A stretch of 53,534 nt of DNA from Candidatus Thermoplasmatota archaeon. GTDB taxonomy: Archaea; Thermoplasmatota; Thermoplasmata; UBA10834. Where the stretch lies: assembly GCA_018814355.1 (NCBI GenBank), contig JAHIZT010000052.1:1-53534 (forward strand), read 5' to 3'. Shown here one piece after another: positions 2,597 to 8,282 of the stretch. The notes under the pieces are model-generated. The model saw only the letters and a program-made list of their open reading frames with translations. It had not been told where the DNA came from and searched no databases. Made by a program: the position numbers and the translations under genes. Within the stretch, counting starts at the first letter, position 1. Each line of letters starts with the position of its first letter.

Positions 2597-3193
2597 CTAT
2601 CTCTCAAACCTCAAAAGAACTACTGAAACGGTCTCGGTAGCCTTTCTGTGGAATTCGAACGCATATGGTATCTCGAATTTATACTTTTTGAGTGGCTTGA
2701 CATCCCCTCCCAGGGAAGATACCAGCCTGGCCACGAAGTCTTCAGTGCCGTCATTGTGAAGGCTGTAGGCCCTCGGCGCTAGCTCCAAGGCCTTCTTGAT
2801 GAACGCACGGTCCGCGTGCTGGGTCTGTGCCCCGAAGGGCGGGTTCTGGAGGACTGTATCGAACTTGCCCGTTGCGGATGAGACGTCCTGCTCCTTGAAG
2901 TCGATGTCGAGGGAGAGTGCCTTGGCATTCCCATGGGCTGTCCGGACCGCTCCTGGGTCGATGTCTATCCCGGTGGCATTCCCGGCCCCCAGCAGCATGG
3001 AGCCGATCGCGAACACGCCGTTGCCGCAGCCGAGGTCGATGACCGACCTGCCCTCGATGTCCCCGGCCGTGAACGCCTCCCAGAGGATGTCGGTGGCGAC
3101 GTCCGCCGGGGTCAAGTACTGTTCCAGTCTCGAGGATCTGGAACTCAGCGGCATCAGCTTCTGAAGCACTATTTCGAGTTGCCGCTTCTTCAT
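2597..3193 (-). CDS. METTL5-like RNA N6-adenine methyltransferase
   Basis: A 198-residue class I SAM-dependent methyltransferase. LEQYLTPADVATDILW is the N-terminal signature of the METTL5/archaeal methylase group, VIDLGCGNGVFAIG is the SAM-binding motif I, and LQNPPFGAQTQ is the catalytic NPPF motif of N6-adenine methylases. Human METTL5 modifies one adenosine of small-subunit rRNA, so the likely substrate here is 16S rRNA, though this is inferred from the family. The gene lies between the GTPase and csl4 with a 30-base gap upstream and none downstream, which fits an RNA-processing operon. Confidence 0.85.
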   Translation of the reverse strand: MKKRQLEIVLQKLMPLSSRSSRLEQYLTPADVATDILWEAFTAGDIEGRSVIDLGCGNGVFAIGSMLLGAGNATGIDIDPGAVRTAHGNAKALSLDIDFKEQDVSSATGKFDTVLQNPPFGAQTQHADRAFIKKALELAPRAYSLHNDGTEDFVARLVSSLGGDVKPLKKYKFEIPYAFEFHRKATETVSVVLLRFER

Positions 3194-3222
3194 GGATAAG
3201 CCCCTAGAAAGTGGCCCAGGGC

Positions 3223-4044
3223 CTACCTGACCTCGTCGATCATCTTCCAGCGCCTGAGCTTGTTGACCTCGGACACGTCTCTTCCATGGACGTCGCGCTC
3301 GATGTCGGACAGATACTCGATCGCCATGAGCAGCGAGTCCTTCGCGGGTGCGTTGACGTTGACCTTGGCTTTAGTGAACTCACGCTCGATTATATCCATG
3401 GCCCTCGAAGTGTCGCCGTACTGTTCGCAGAAGTCGCTGACGACGTCGTCTACGGCCTGCGCGAGGGATTCCGCTGTGGGCTCCTGGGAACCTTTCTTGT
3501 CACCAGAGTCAGTCCATGTCATCAACTCTCCGATCTTCCTGAAGGTTGCCTCGACATTCTCGCCAGTCTTCGCGCTTCCTAGGAGCAGCGGAACCTCCAT
3601 TTTGACTGAGACCTGCTTGAGTGCCAGGGCGCCGGGCGATTCTGCTGGGGCCAGGTCCGACTTGTTGCCGACAAGCAGAACCGGGGCGTTTGGGACGACC
3701 TCACTGACCTCGGGAAGCCAGAAGTCCTCGACCGATTTCACTGTCTCGAGCCGAGTCAGGTCGGAGACCAAGATTACTCCGTGCGCGCCTGTCAGCCCCT
3801 GGGTCCTCATCTTCTTGTAGTCCTTCTGCCCCAGGATGTCCCACATCATTAGCGTCAGATAGACGGTCTTGTCGGGAAGCTTGTACTCGAGATCCTTCTT
3901 GCTGACTTTGGCACCTATGGTCGCGATGTACTTGTCGTCGAACACGTCGATGACGAATCTGCGGATCATGGAAGTCTTCCCGACCGACGAATCGCCAACG
4001 AGCGCGACCTTCTTGATATATCGCTTAGACTTGATTATGCTCAC
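3223..4044 (-). CDS. Ras/Rab-like small GTPase with helical C-terminal extension
   Basis: Ras-superfamily GTPase. P-loop GDSSVGKTS near residue 16 (from the chosen start), switch-I Thr in YIATIGAKV, switch-II WDILGQ keeping the catalytic-type Gln but with Ile-Leu for the usual Thr-Ala, NKSD for guanine and GSAKTGEN as the G5 loop. After about residue 185 comes an extra helical region of about 85 residues with no terminal Cys, so no prenylation is expected. I chose GTG at 4044 because TATA-like sequence lies about 25 nt upstream and Ras folds start near the P-loop. An ATG at 4152 would add 36 unusual residues. It heads the operon with the methylase and csl4 and is divergent from the coiled-coil gene at 4255. 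Confidence 0.82.
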   Translation of the reverse strand: MSIIKSKRYIKKVALVGDSSVGKTSMIRRFVIDVFDDKYIATIGAKVSKKDLEYKLPDKTVYLTLMMWDILGQKDYKKMRTQGLTGAHGVILVSDLTRLETVKSVEDFWLPEVSEVVPNAPVLLVGNKSDLAPAESPGALALKQVSVKMEVPLLLGSAKTGENVEATFRKIGELMTWTDSGDKKGSQEPTAESLAQAVDDVVSDFCEQYGDTSRAMDIIEREFTKAKVNVNAPAKDSLLMAIEYLSDIERDVHGRDVSEVNKLRRWKMIDEVR

Positions 4045-4064
4045 TTGATTCCCAGCCTGGAAGA

Positions 4065-4073
4065 TGAATAATG
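4065..4073 (-). promoter_or_regulatory. TATA-like box of the GTPase-csl4-glyA operon
   Basis: On the minus strand TCATTATTC is centred about 25 bases before the GTG at 4044, which would give a leaderless message and supports that start. Confidence 0.4.
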
Positions 4074-4220
4074 ACTTGGGATGCGATGCATCAGAGAATA
4101 CATAACCCTTTCCAGAGCCCCACGGAGCTGGCACACAGTGCTCTCGATCCATTTCTTTGGGTGTAAGACTCTACTGGCCTAGCTGAGAATCATGCACTGA
4201 ACCCAAGTAGGAAAAGCTCA

Positions 4221-4228
4221 ATAATAGA
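4221..4228 (+). promoter_or_regulatory. TATA-like box for the coiled-coil gene
   Basis: ATAATAGA lies about 30 bases before the ATG at 4255, which is the usual archaeal spacing for a leaderless or very short-leader transcript. Confidence 0.45.
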
Positions 4229-4254
4229 TAGCCGATAATCCCCGAGAAGATCAA

Positions 4255-5562
4255 ATGGACAACTCCTCTCCCCAGGCCTCATTTCCCGCTAAGAAGGCGC
4301 TTGAGAACTATGCTATCTCCTACATGGGCGCCTACCTGAATACCGTCAAGAAGGAACGTCCGGAGCATGAGCCCTTCCTGGCGAGGAACCAGTTCTATGA
4401 GATAGAGGTCAGCCAGATGCCGAACAGCTGCATCGCAATGCTGTTCGAGAAGGCGGACAAACAGAATGTCGTGGCGAAGACCTGCGACTGGGACTTTGTC
4501 GAGGGCAAGGTGATGTCTGGCGTCGCATACCTCGTTACCGTGTACGCCCACGAAGGCATCTCAGTCGCTGACGCCATTTCGAGGGGCAAGAAGGACGCGA
4601 TTAGAGACATACGCACCCTCGAGGACTCGTCCATATCCAAGGCGGTCACGCAGCTGGAAAAGATACTCCAAGGCATGTCCAGAGTTGGAAAGGGTAACAA
4701 GTCCATGGTAGAGCTCGGGGAGCGTGAACTCGCGAAGCTAGAGCCAATCAAGGACGCCATCCGGAACGCGGGACCCGAGCTAGACATGTTGCAGATGATA
4801 GATGCGCTCAAGAACTATCCAGGAGTTCATACAGAGACGTGCATTGGCGACCAGGAGAAAGAACTCCTTCAGAGGATCGTAACCGAGCTCGGGGACATGT
4901 CCGATGTCATCCGCAGAGCTGAGGCCCAGGACAAGAAGCTCGAGGAGCTCGAGCAGGCCATGAAGAAGGCCCTGTCCGAATTCAACAGGACTGTGGACGA
5001 GAGGGTATCGAAAGGCCTCGCTGTGATCCTTCAAGCATCTGATAAGAAGATCGACAAGGGCTTTTCCGCTTTTGCTGGAGCCTCGAAACATCCTTCCGAC
5101 CTGCAGCTCCCGAAGGACCTTGAGACCAGGCTGGAGAGGATCGAGAAGACGGTTGCTGCCACTGTGTTGCATCTGAAGGACCAGTCCAGCAGGAGCATTG
5201 CCGAGACGGGGGCTCCGGCCGATCTGGAGAAGCGCATCGCCACATTAGAGAAGGCTCTTGGGCAGCTCGAAGTGAGGATTCAAGAGAGAGCGGCTAGGGC
5301 GGATGTCTCGGTCGCGCTTCCGAAGGACATGGAACAGCGGCTCGAGATGCTCGACAAGTCTGCCAGCGCCCTCCAGACACAGGTCCAGCAGTGGATCCAG
5401 GCGCAGCAGGCCAAGCCGGCGGTCCACGGAGAACTTGTTCTGGCCGTAGCCGACCTCAAGGAGAACATCGCCAGGACGAACAACAGGATCATCAAGATCG
5501 AGGAATTCTTGCAGCAGGCTTCGGGCGCGCGCGTCCGAACACTCAAGCAGAAGCCGCAATGA
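4255..5562 (+). CDS. Coiled-coil protein with three 35-residue repeats, unknown function
   Basis: A 435-residue soluble protein. The first 140 residues look globular (YAISYMGAYLNTVKKERPEHEPF, then a Cys-Trp-Asp region) and match no family I know. From about residue 200 it is rich in Glu, Lys and Leu with heptad character. Inside this part three copies of a P-x-D-[LM]-E-x-R motif begin at prolines encoded at 5110, 5215 and 5320, exactly 105 bases apart. The C-terminal helix ends in a basic tail. No signal peptide or membrane segment is seen. It is divergent from the Rab-like GTPase operon, so a partner role with that GTPase is possible but unproven. Confidence 0.7.
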   Translation: MDNSSPQASFPAKKALENYAISYMGAYLNTVKKERPEHEPFLARNQFYEIEVSQMPNSCIAMLFEKADKQNVVAKTCDWDFVEGKVMSGVAYLVTVYAHEGISVADAISRGKKDAIRDIRTLEDSSISKAVTQLEKILQGMSRVGKGNKSMVELGERELAKLEPIKDAIRNAGPELDMLQMIDALKNYPGVHTETCIGDQEKELLQRIVTELGDMSDVIRRAEAQDKKLEELEQAMKKALSEFNRTVDERVSKGLAVILQASDKKIDKGFSAFAGASKHPSDLQLPKDLETRLERIEKTVAATVLHLKDQSSRSIAETGAPADLEKRIATLEKALGQLEVRIQERAARADVSVALPKDMEQRLEMLDKSASALQTQVQQWIQAQQAKPAVHGELVLAVADLKENIARTNNRIIKIEEFLQQASGARVRTLKQKPQ

Positions 5563-6354
5563 TCATCTGCGCCAGATGCCCTTGATGCCGAACAGGACCG
5601 CCTCGTTGGTTCTGTGGATGAGCGGATTGGACCGGACCCTCCTGGTGATGACTGGGTTCTTGAGCACGACCTCGCGAAGCTCTGCAAGGCTCGTGCAGTC
5701 AGGAGCTTGGATCCTGCCGTTGCCGATCTCCATGACTAGGTGAGCGTCGGAGACAGCAATCCCTGGTTTGTTGAGTCCGGAGGCGAGGTCGACGGATCTC
5801 TGATTGTCTTTCGCGCTGAGCGTAGCGTTGAACGCCTCATAACCGTCGGCAATCTCGATTGCCCCCTTGGTGACCTTGCGTGACTCGCCCGGATGAGGTA
5901 CTATAGCGATGCCTGCCTGAGCGTGAATCTTCTCCACCGCCTCTTCGAACGAGTATGACTTGATCTCCTTCTCCACGAATAGTGCTACAAGATCCCCCTT
6001 GTCGGTCTTGAGCTCCGCGCCGGGAACGATCAATAGGTTGGGCGGAGTGACCCTCGACGCGGCTCTTGCCCCTTCCCAAGAGTCGTGGTCAGTGATGGCA
6101 ATCGCACCAAGGCCGACATCCGAGGCTCTCCTGACCATCGCTTCGATCTTGCTTCGAGAGTCAGGCGAGTAGAACGAGTGCATGTGAAGATCGACCTCCA
6201 AACTCTTGTCCTCCGGTTTCCACACGGATATCCGCGCCTTCACATAATGCTTCGGTCGAAGTCTCCGTATCGATACTCTCTCTGAAGTTCTTGGAATCGC
6301 GATTTGGCGCAAGATTGACCTAGCCACACGCAGGTCCCTCTTCGATGGAGGCAC
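5563..6354 (-). CDS. PHP-domain metal-dependent phosphoesterase
   Basis: A 263-residue PHP protein with the metal-site motifs in order: HMHSFYSPDS (HxH), AITDHDS, PGAELKTDKGD, VPHPGESR and VSDAHL. These build the two- or three-metal site of stand-alone PHP phosphoesterases related to 3',5'-nucleoside bisphosphate phosphatases and to the PHP domain of bacterial polymerases. The exact substrate is unknown. An N-terminal basic segment of about 50 residues precedes the fold. The real start could be downstream of the ATG at 6354, such as a GTG near 6239, because no ribosome site precedes 6354 and it nearly abuts the divergent gene at 6360. Confidence 0.82.
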   Translation of the reverse strand: MPPSKRDLRVARSILRQIAIPRTSERVSIRRLRPKHYVKARISVWKPEDKSLEVDLHMHSFYSPDSRSKIEAMVRRASDVGLGAIAITDHDSWEGARAASRVTPPNLLIVPGAELKTDKGDLVALFVEKEIKSYSFEEAVEKIHAQAGIAIVPHPGESRKVTKGAIEIADGYEAFNATLSAKDNQRSVDLASGLNKPGIAVSDAHLVMEIGNGRIQAPDCTSLAELREVVLKNPVITRRVRSNPLIHRTNEAVLFGIKGIWRR

Positions 6355-6359
6355 ATCAC

Positions 6360-6722
6360 ATGGGCGAGGCGATGAATCCCGAGGTGCGCGAGTTCGTCGA
6401 CGACCTGGACGAAAGCAAGAAGGGTATCGTTCTGAATCTGAGAAAGCTTATACTCGATTCGATACCAGGTGTCAAGGAACTGATAAAGTGGAAGACCCTG
6501 ACGTATCAACGGAACGAGGTCATCTGCATGATTCTGGTGTTCAAGAAACAAGTGAACCTGCGGATCTGGAAAGGAGCCGAGGTCGACGACGAGAGCGGCC
6601 TGCTGGAGGGGAAAGGAAGAGTCATGAGACACTTGATTGTGGTCACAAGTTCCGATATCAATCCGAAGGTGTTCAGAAGTATCCTGGCCAAGGCGATGGC
6701 TCTCGACAAGAAAGGGCACTGA
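6360..6722 (+). CDS. DUF1801/YdhG-like domain protein
   Basis: A 120-residue protein of the YdhG-like (DUF1801) fold. PEVREFVDDLDESKKGIVLNLRKLI and the IPGVKELIKW segment followed by beta strands are typical of this small, functionally unclear family. The ATG at 6360 is chosen because GGAGG at 6347-6351 sits 8 bases upstream. An ATG at 6345 would lie on the ribosome site itself. It is single and divergent from the PHP gene. Confidence 0.75.
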   Translation: MGEAMNPEVREFVDDLDESKKGIVLNLRKLILDSIPGVKELIKWKTLTYQRNEVICMILVFKKQVNLRIWKGAEVDDESGLLEGKGRVMRHLIVVTSSDINPKVFRSILAKAMALDKKGH

Positions 6723-6836
6723 GTGTTGTCAGGCGGCATTGACCCAGACGCCAGGAGGCCTCTGCCTCACAAGCCTCTTATGCAGCGTGAAGAAACCTCT
6801 ATGGGCCGCAGAGATTATTGCGTGACATATTCTTTC

Positions 6837-7337
6837 TCAGAATCTGCGTCGCTTCAGCATGCTCCAGAGCGCCCAGCCGCCGCCGTTCACAATCCCGACC
6901 ACGAGCAAGGACAGGATGAATACAGCGAGGTTCTGGTAGCCGTTGTAGTCTCCTGCATAGAAGAACAGCCAGATTATGAGAAACACCAGCCATCCGATGC
7001 CGGACGCAATGGATATGACGGTCATCAGGATCGGACGGCCGAACTGCATGGGCTGCGCCACGCCCGCCCTCGTAGCCATCCGCATACCCCATGGCGCCCA
7101 CATCGCGCCGAGTACGCCGACGCTCACGAGCACCGACACGATCACGATTGCCAGGTTCTGGAATATGTCGAAATCCCCTGCGTAGAAAAACAGCCATAGG
7201 ATCAGGACGCTCACCCAGCCAATGACTATCAATATCGATGCTGCCACTCTCCATCCGAACCCCGGGGTCGTCCGGACGTCGGGATGAGAGTGTTCTGGCC
7301 AAGACCCTTGTTGAGGTGATTCTTCTTGTTGTTCCAT
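6837..7337 (-). CDS. Membrane protein with internal duplication (4 TM)
   Basis: A 166-residue protein with four predicted membrane segments. The two halves are clear copies: GWVSVLILWLFFYAGDFD-x-FQNLA in the first and GWLVFLIIWLFFYAGDYN-x-YQNLA in the second, each followed by a second helix and a Trp-rich turn (APWGM / ALWSM). The N-terminus is polar (MEQQEESPQQ) and the C-terminus is basic (KRRRF), which suggests both ends are cytoplasmic. It is a single gene with a TATA-like TTAAATA about 40 bases upstream. The function is unknown. Confidence 0.72.
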   Translation of the reverse strand: MEQQEESPQQGSWPEHSHPDVRTTPGFGWRVAASILIVIGWVSVLILWLFFYAGDFDIFQNLAIVIVSVLVSVGVLGAMWAPWGMRMATRAGVAQPMQFGRPILMTVISIASGIGWLVFLIIWLFFYAGDYNGYQNLAVFILSLLVVGIVNGGGWALWSMLKRRRF

Positions 7338-7438
7338 GCAAACGCACCCGACGTTGACGAAAGACTTTGACCTATTTAACTCGAACCACGAATTTCGGGT
7401 GTGTCGACTCGTTCCTCGGCCCAGCTGGAGAGAAGAGA

Positions 7439-7456
7439 AGTGAGCCCAACCGGATT
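7439..7456 (+). repeat. att-like repeat, distal copy of the tRNA-Val 3' end
   Basis: AGTGAGCCCAACCGGATT matches 17 of 18 bases at 8208-8225, which is the 3' part of the tRNA-Val gene (acceptor and T arm). The pair brackets the recombinase gene, as expected for attachment sites made by integration into a tRNA gene. Confidence 0.65.
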
Positions 7457-7580
7457 AGGGCGGGTCAGGCCGACTGGCTAGAGGTCGGAAATTTCCGCTT
7501 TCGGAAATCTCATCGCCGAGGATGCGAGAGATGATACAAACCCCTTCTCGTCCTTTTTCTCATGGTCATGTCCTGGTTGC

Positions 7581-8228
7581 ATGAAGTCGTCATATGGGAT
7601 AAGGGACTACGAAACCGAGTGGCTGACCCTCGAAAATGTCCTTCCTGGGGCATCTTCGCCGAGGAGAAGAATCGAGCTGTTGAGGTTGAGACCCAAGGAT
7701 TTCCAGACTGGCAAGGCCTTCAACACCATTTCCATACTTGGCAAGGGTAGGTATGGTGGCAAGCTTCGAACCATTGACTGGCACCCTGACACGCCTGCCG
7801 AACTCGAAGCCTATCTTGATTTGAGGGACAGTATGGTGATGAGGGCCAGAGGCAAGAACCAGAATGTGGAGATGCCAGAGGACTTCTTGATCTATGAGAG
7901 AGATGGAAAGCTGTATCCCTACTCGGAGTCGGGGGTTGACTCAATCATAGGCAGGTTGTCTGAGAGGACACATATCGAGTTCATGAACCACGACCTTCGC
8001 CGAACATGTGGGAGAATGATGTACCGAGCTGGAGTCAGGATCGGACAGATAGCTCGGATATTCGGCCACAGCGACATACGCACAACGATGAAGTATCTCG
8101 GTCTCGACCATGAAGACATGGCCGAGGCAATGAGCCAATATGCCCAGTATCAGAAAGCGGTAGTTTTTCCGAAAGTGGAAAGAATCGAGCATGAGCCAGA
8201 TGGTGAGAGTGGGCCCAACCGGATTTGA
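7581..8228 (+). CDS. Tyrosine recombinase (integrase), catalytic domain, truncated N-terminus
   Basis: A 215-residue phage-integrase-family protein. It retains a box-I Arg in RRRIELLRLRP, the beta-hairpin Lys in GKGRYGGKLRT, HDLRRT (H-x-x-R), FGHSDIRTT and the nucleophile in MKYLGL. So all catalytic residues are visible, but the N-terminal core-binding domain of usual 300-400 residue integrases is missing. The last codons (SGPNRI) and the stop at 8226-8228 lie inside the tRNA-Val gene on the opposite strand. If the element were excised at the repeats, the frame would run on for 25 more codons. It is probably a decayed relic, though expression cannot be excluded. Confidence 0.75.
   Translation: MKSSYGIRDYETEWLTLENVLPGASSPRRRIELLRLRPKDFQTGKAFNTISILGKGRYGGKLRTIDWHPDTPAELEAYLDLRDSMVMRARGKNQNVEMPEDFLIYERDGKLYPYSESGVDSIIGRLSERTHIEFMNHDLRRTCGRMMYRAGVRIGQIARIFGHSDIRTTMKYLGLDHEDMAEAMSQYAQYQKAVVFPKVERIEHEPDGESGPNRI
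8208..8225 (+). repeat. att-like repeat within the tRNA-Val 3' end
   Basis: AGTGGGCCCAACCGGATT, the intact partner of the copy at 7439-7456. It covers the discriminator base, the 3' acceptor strand and half of the T arm of the tRNA gene on the minus strand. Confidence 0.65.
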
Positions 8229-8282
8229 ACCGGTGATCTGCGCTGTGTGAGAGCGCCGTCATAACCGCTAGACCATGGGCCC
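8210..8282 (-). tRNA. tRNA-Val (anticodon CAC)
   Basis: A 73-base cloverleaf on the minus strand. The acceptor is GGGCCCA paired with TGGGCCC and followed by discriminator A. The D arm includes TCTAGCGGTTATGA. The anticodon stem is GCGCT/AGCGC around loop CTCACAC (anticodon CAC), and the T arm is ACCGG-TTCAAAT-CCGGT. CCA is not encoded and no intron is present. Its 3' end overlaps the end of the recombinase gene on the other strand. Confidence 0.95.

Follow-up and report, generated by a model that had tools for sequence, protein, structure and literature searches.

A decayed integrase remnant beside an archaeal tRNA-Val gene and a family of Thermoplasmata elements whose attachment site probably lies inside the integrase gene

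A stretch of Thermoplasmata DNA of 53,534 nucleotides, called here the window, contains a nearly empty interval of some 770 bases abutting a tRNA-Val gene, and the only recognizable reading frame in this interval, a piece of a tyrosine recombinase, ends inside the tRNA. Is this the ordinary leftover of an integrated element, or did the element carry its attachment (att) site within its own integrase gene? An earlier note, made from the letters of the window, had raised the second possibility, proposing that the frame would continue past the att core in a circular form of the element, as in SSV-type archaeal elements. We compared the locus with public genome assemblies, mostly draft, the evidence being assembled sequence. 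The interval is probably a decayed, integrase-only remnant of a tRNA-targeting element of Thermoplasmata, in whose family the integrase gene has attP within its 3' end; the likeness to SSV-type elements, as discussed below, goes only part of the way.

The integration itself is well supported. AGTGaGCCCAACCGGATT (7439–7456) and AGTGgGCCCAACCGGATT (8208–8225) form a direct repeat, identical at 17 of 18 positions with a spacing of 769 bp, in agreement with the repeat of the tRNA-Val 3' end noted earlier around about 770 bases. ARAGORN places a tRNA-Val(CAC) gene, the target, at 8209–8282 on the minus strand, and the right copy of the repeat is therefore the real tRNA 3' end; its core (8209–8225) is read on the plus strand, in frame, as (S)GPNRI. 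The displaced core at the left end, GTGAGCCCAACCGGATT (7440–7456, plus strand), differs from the tRNA copy by one mismatch. A genome of the same genus (G005) carries the empty site: sequence closely matching the native left flank of the window (7270–7439) there abuts an intact tRNA-Val(CAC), with the same downstream gene adjoining (L203). Both marks of a tRNA-integrated element are thus present, namely a relative whose site is empty and a tRNA 3' end that has been displaced, and since G005 carries the empty site we take the insertion into tRNA-Val(CAC) to be real and precise, as the integrated-element reading had it. In another genome (G015:C1, L212), the right arm at the same tRNA-Val(CAC) site contains CCGAAAGTGGAAA, a string that it shares with the window. 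Small membrane proteins are encoded directly left of the left core; that of the window (6837–7337), for which no Pfam match was found, resembles one in L080 (6796–7284, flipped).

The frame inside the interval is composite. The plus-strand ORF 7581–8228 ends at a TGA (8226–8228, plus strand) formed by the antisense of the tRNA T-arm, the same TGA that ends the integrases of relatives, and it matches PF00589 with an E value of 2.2e-12 over the second half of the domain only; the earlier description of a truncated tyrosine recombinase running into the opposite-strand tRNA is therefore accurate. Alignment to database integrases, however, bears out only part of the ORF as recombinase: homology begins at about residue 28, and the earlier residues belong to a second left end. 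A single integrase spanning all 215 residues was accordingly ruled out, residues 1–25 matching left ends and not integrases. This second left end (7585–7676) is of a type that carries tRNA-Ala cores elsewhere. It consists of a degenerate core (7585–7601, plus strand), which aligns with left ends in G004, G008, G015 and G018, and of tail codons (RDYETEWLTLENVLPGASSPRRRIE; 7602–7676, plus strand), which are 91% identical over 82 nt to G004:C241 and are fused to the integrase. The fusion point is a 12-nt microhomology, AGAAGAATCGAG (7665–7676), shared by Ala-type left ends, in their tail end (RRRIER), and by the intact integrase L174, in box I (RRIE): Ala-type left ends finish with ...RRRIER and a stop, box I of L174 reads ...LRRIEV, and the window ORF switches between them at AGAAGAATCGAG.

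From the box I Arg to the att core (7665–8225, plus strand) extends the catalytic half of a tyrosine recombinase, 53% identical to G017:C100 and identified by PF00589 and its place in the integrase tree. The PF00589 match is accompanied by the invariant R, K, HxxR, GH and Y columns, and the presumed catalytic Tyr codon (8094–8096, plus strand) occupies the invariant Tyr column of alignment A2, 115 nt before the core. The window copy thus holds the catalytic R-K-HxxR-H-Y set, though without the N-terminal domains of the integrase. Since that N-terminal half is lacking, the copy is almost certainly inactive; the loss of that half would be explained by a deletion or recombination at the AGAAGAATCGAG microhomology. 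The contig L030 (G017:C100) starts at CAGAATCGAG, nearly the same box I string as at the fusion point of the window; the string may mark a place of repeated recombination or the point where assembly broke off.

When the core at 8209–8225 is joined to position 7457, as it would be in a circle, the frame continues as RAGQADWLEVGNFRFRKSHRRGCER to a stop at 7532–7534, confirming the 25 codons that had been predicted past the core. These putative C-terminal tail codons (7457–7534, plus strand) have homologs at related left ends, which were found in G001, G004, G008, G013, G015 and G018; the left ends in G000:C15 and G001:C34, 85% and 80% identical, retain both the frame and the stop. This homology upholds the proposal that the att site lies within the integrase gene. 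In 25 left ends from four families of a single class, one of them that of the host, the read-through frame has no stop within the first 16 codons in any case, as against 13 and 23 left ends with stops in the other two forward frames; f29 and f20 genomes add three more with the read-through frame open. On a minimum spanning tree, which corrects for relatedness only partly, the probability of finding no in-frame stop when the observed changes are placed randomly on same-base positions is P = 0.00175, and the pN/pS of the tail is 0.69, versus 0.90 and 1.00 in shifted control frames. Changes are distributed over the three codon positions as 54/55/65, third positions being only slightly more variable. 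Amino-acid constraint on the tail is thus weak, and stop avoidance is the stronger signal. Many of the open tails belong to elements that have no integrase. Weak tail matches in G180, G237 and G352 looked like chance and were set aside.

Intact, more distant relatives reveal the gene from which such a remnant could derive. Intact integrases of the same class, in families f1, f6, f20, f29 and f30, end inside tRNA-Ala or tRNA-Ile genes in the same frame, with the shared pattern (n)GT GGn nnn nnn nGG ATT TGA, and the copies of the window and of G006 read into tRNA-Val by this same pattern. The T-arm TGA ends the integrase in L030, L094, L179–L183, L225 and L247; in L184 and L155 the T-arm reads CGA, and the integrase frame is consequently slightly longer. 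The linker between the Tyr codon and the core measures 103, 106, 109, 112, 115 or 118 nt, equal modulo 3 in all 13 integrases compared. Four elements are complete, each having its two cores, an open tail and an intact integrase: L094 (5.3 kb, in tRNA-Ile, with a tail of 16 codons), L181 (6.65 kb, in tRNA-Ala, 33 codons), and two more (L183+L192 and L184+L193), located at G375 C13:240326-252174 (33 codons) and G222 C4:42749-55628 (25 codons). In all four the tail codons are at the far end of the element, and in complete integrated relatives all catalytic residues fall within one ORF.

The undivided gene is found in G363:C60, where an uninterrupted frame of 372 residues, ...SQKNGGPSGI-CIREYDWPIEQSYRYRK followed by a stop, comprises integrase, core and tail. 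This is a tandem junction, a further core with its own open tail being present 5.84 kb upstream. The possibility that G363:C60 is itself a circle or plasmid was rejected, because its ends do not overlap and the second core 5.84 kb away marks a tandem array. In the assembled DNA, these genes demonstrate in-frame read-through across the att core. A search for a free circle in viral contigs, phages and plasmids yielded no close relative, only distant integrases. The read-through family was seen in one archaeal class, Thermoplasmata, and no read-through was seen among the few matches examined from other classes of the phylum. A serine recombinase gene of the resolvase type stands just upstream of the tyrosine integrase in L094 (6502–7233), where PF00239 was confirmed, and in L084 (8165–8767, flipped).

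The same codons also bear regular DNA motifs. Both attP arms, including palindromes peculiar to each element, lie inside the integrase ORF. In the window, the left arm contains the perfect palindrome ATTTCCG-CTTT-CGGAAAT (7491–7508) and the right arm contains TTTTTCCGAAAGTGGAAAGA (8164–8183), inside the integrase coding sequence and built on the same element-specific half-site. In most elements the palindromes end 22–25 nt before the core and start 33–35 nt after it, and their sequence is common to both arms of one element but different between elements, with half-sites TTTCCG/CGGAAA in the window and G363, TTGTACC/GGTACAA in L181 and TGCCC/GGGC in L032. Of the 28 left ends compared, 24 have such a palindrome at the expected place, which shuffled sequence matches in 11% of cases; it is absent from the three left ends of the L094 type. 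Closer in, the core is flanked by an AGCCAG...CTGGC pair, represented in the window by AGCCAG at 8194–8199, a motif present in most right ends, and by its inverted partner CTGGCT at 7474–7479, the CTGG of which occurs 17 nt past the core in most of the 28 left ends. The palindromes and the AGCCAG/CTGGC pair are probably binding sites of the recombinase or an accessory factor. Because the palindromes sit in tail codons, DNA and protein constraint on the tail are confounded; this dual use of the DNA would account for the weak protein-level selection, and the tail may be conserved at the DNA level.

A sister group of integrases ends just before the core (...VPDV and a stop). In six of seven left ends of this group the codon next to the core is TGA, which rules out reading in the tail frame; the group keeps the CTGGC arm motif. 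In the integrase tree, nine of the ten read-through integrases fall into one set of 16 rows, with 97% SH-aLRT, and the read-through state takes five changes, a number equally low in 1 of 500 shuffles. L094 falls among the stop-before integrases, which implies two or more gains of read-through, with a separate one in L094, or else repeated losses.

A longer element with the core of the window, which the earlier note had suggested seeking, was found on another contig of the genome to which the window belongs, G000:C15 (L028). This 3.85-kb element (3100–6948) lacks an integrase but has the same two ends, and as a circle it would read EAMKQYAQYQKAVVFPKTERIDSEPDERSGPNRI-RTGQTEWLTVKNFRSRKSHRRGCER to a stop. 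Its cargo is one protein of 1046 aa with weak reprolysin-like and CARDB matches, and no tRNA gene lies at its right flank. Other integrase-less elements, often of one gene, are found by tRNA-Ala and tRNA-Val genes (L080, in G015:C10, 6292–10583; L091; L032; L087). They occur in tandem or singly, and each begins with the conserved left end; judged by eye, the proteins that they carry include ones resembling an aminotransferase, an MFS transporter and a flavodoxin. These elements resemble a tRNA-anchored cassette array. A motif of roughly CCCYTATGGYCTTTTCYSAGAAT precedes the core where the integrase right end is lacking (L080, L093, L032, L088, L082, L087 and L091).

We propose the following course of events for the family. 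In the circle, the ORF would extend from the catalytic Tyr through the linker, with its right-arm palindrome, and through the core into a tail of 16–33 codons, which in most cases would also hold the left-arm palindrome. On integration, the core would be the cut point: the catalytic part would remain beside the tRNA, its frame ending at the TGA read antisense to the T-arm, so that the tRNA gene would supply the stop, and the last 16–33 amino acids would be removed, their codons moving to the far end of the element. The circle would thus yield an integrase with a tail, and exchanging that tail could alter the activity or direction of the enzyme after integration, given that XerA, a distant relative, still cleaves but no longer recombines, and forms higher-order assemblies less well, when its C-terminal alpha-N helix is deleted (PMC3646895). 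By this analogy we infer a functional role for the tail swap. An AlphaFold model of L174, from a 10-row alignment, gives the linker and tail a pLDDT under 50, with no structural role visible. A more specific version, in which the tail acts as a sensor of the integration state, the long tailed enzyme being made in the circle and the T-arm antisense stop taking effect once integrated, would provide directionality without a separate factor; we put it forward tentatively, as a possibility more doubtful than the arrangement of the gene itself.

Several other explanations must be weighed against this one. It had been allowed that the 25 codons could be open by chance; the repeat would then be the usual att duplication of a tRNA end, left by an element in decay. 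By simple arithmetic a random frame of 25 codons is open about 30% of the time. With homologous tails in the same frame and with the same stop at the left ends of many related elements and in many genomes, this explanation is scarcely credible. Hardly more probable is an integrase of the SSV type (Type I, suicidal), which integration would divide and inactivate. The att core does lie inside the ORF, but it follows the catalytic Tyr instead of falling in the N-terminal part, the catalytic residues of complete integrated relatives share one ORF, and the Pfam matches are to PF00589, not PF16795. It is considerably easier to conceive, though we doubt it, that attP merely overlaps the integrase 3' end, with the arms kept as DNA sites and the open tail a by-product without protein function. 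Such an overlap would agree with the palindromes and CTGG/AGCCAG motifs at fixed distances in tail and linker, with the weak codon-level constraint, with the tails still carried by integrase-less cassettes, and with the sister group, which stops before the core yet keeps the CTGGC motif. Against it stand the stop avoidance (P = 0.00175), the favoring of the read-through frame over the other two, linker lengths that are always in frame, and the further gain of read-through by the L094 clade.

A further alternative bears on what became of the window copy and leaves room for an att site inside the integrase gene of the family: the remnant could be a non-autonomous mini-element, MITE- or CIME-like and mobilized in trans, instead of a dead leftover. 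Integrase-less elements with the same ends, such as that of G000:C15 and the arrays in G015, lend it some plausibility. We consider it unlikely, as the left core is point-mutated, two left ends are combined in the window element, and none of the PF00589 matches in G000 was recognized as an intact integrase of the read-through kind. A decayed remnant of a family with attP in the integrase 3' end remains the reading that we prefer.

Among tyrosine recombinases of archaea, integrases that are split by integration are distinguished from those left intact (PMC8371274). SSV-type elements (Type I, including SSV1, pTN3 and pT26-2) have att inside the integrase gene, target a tRNA and alter the gene on integration, which separates an N-terminal piece from the catalytic part (reviewed in PMC8371274). 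The present family is alike in the position of att within the integrase ORF, in its tRNA target and in the change that integration brings to the gene. The comparison drawn by the earlier note fails beyond this point: att lies at the 3' end, 103–118 nt past the Tyr codon, the catalytic domain is left undivided, and the exchange is confined to the C-terminal tail; in none of 13 integrases does the core separate the N-terminal from the catalytic part. No match to PF16795 (Phage_integr_3) was obtained in the window ORF (E up to 1) or in L181 (E up to 0.01). In pNOB8-type (Type II) elements the catalytic integrase stays one ORF after integration (PMC8371274), as it does here; unlike in that type, the integrase gene does not come through integration unchanged, its C-terminus being replaced and ended by the tRNA gene and its tail codons left at the far end of the element.

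Among solved structures, archaeal XerA (4a8e, 5hxy) is the best sequence match (E 5.5e-23). Its C-terminal segment controls catalysis, the C-terminal helix being reported as a molecular switch (PMC3646895). XerA differs from the integrases described here in resolving chromosome dimers at dif and in not being known to swap its C-terminus; the location of the integrases beside tRNA genes speaks against a XerA-type role at dif. The integrase-less, att-flanked elements are presumably comparable to CIMEs or MITEs, carrying cargo between the same arms without an integrase (G000:C15, G015:C10), but they often consist of one gene and in some cases stand in tandem next to archaeal tRNA genes, and their mobilization is putative. 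Bacterial phages in which attP overlaps the 3' end of int are possible precedents. In the open-access literature we found no description of a C-terminal swap on integration, which does not prove that there is none. The arrangement offers a testable model for the control of integration direction in archaea, and it fixes the exact limits of elements and single-gene cassettes that would otherwise lack annotation. The family fits neither the split-gene nor the kept-gene class: the enzyme is retained, and its tail is exchanged.
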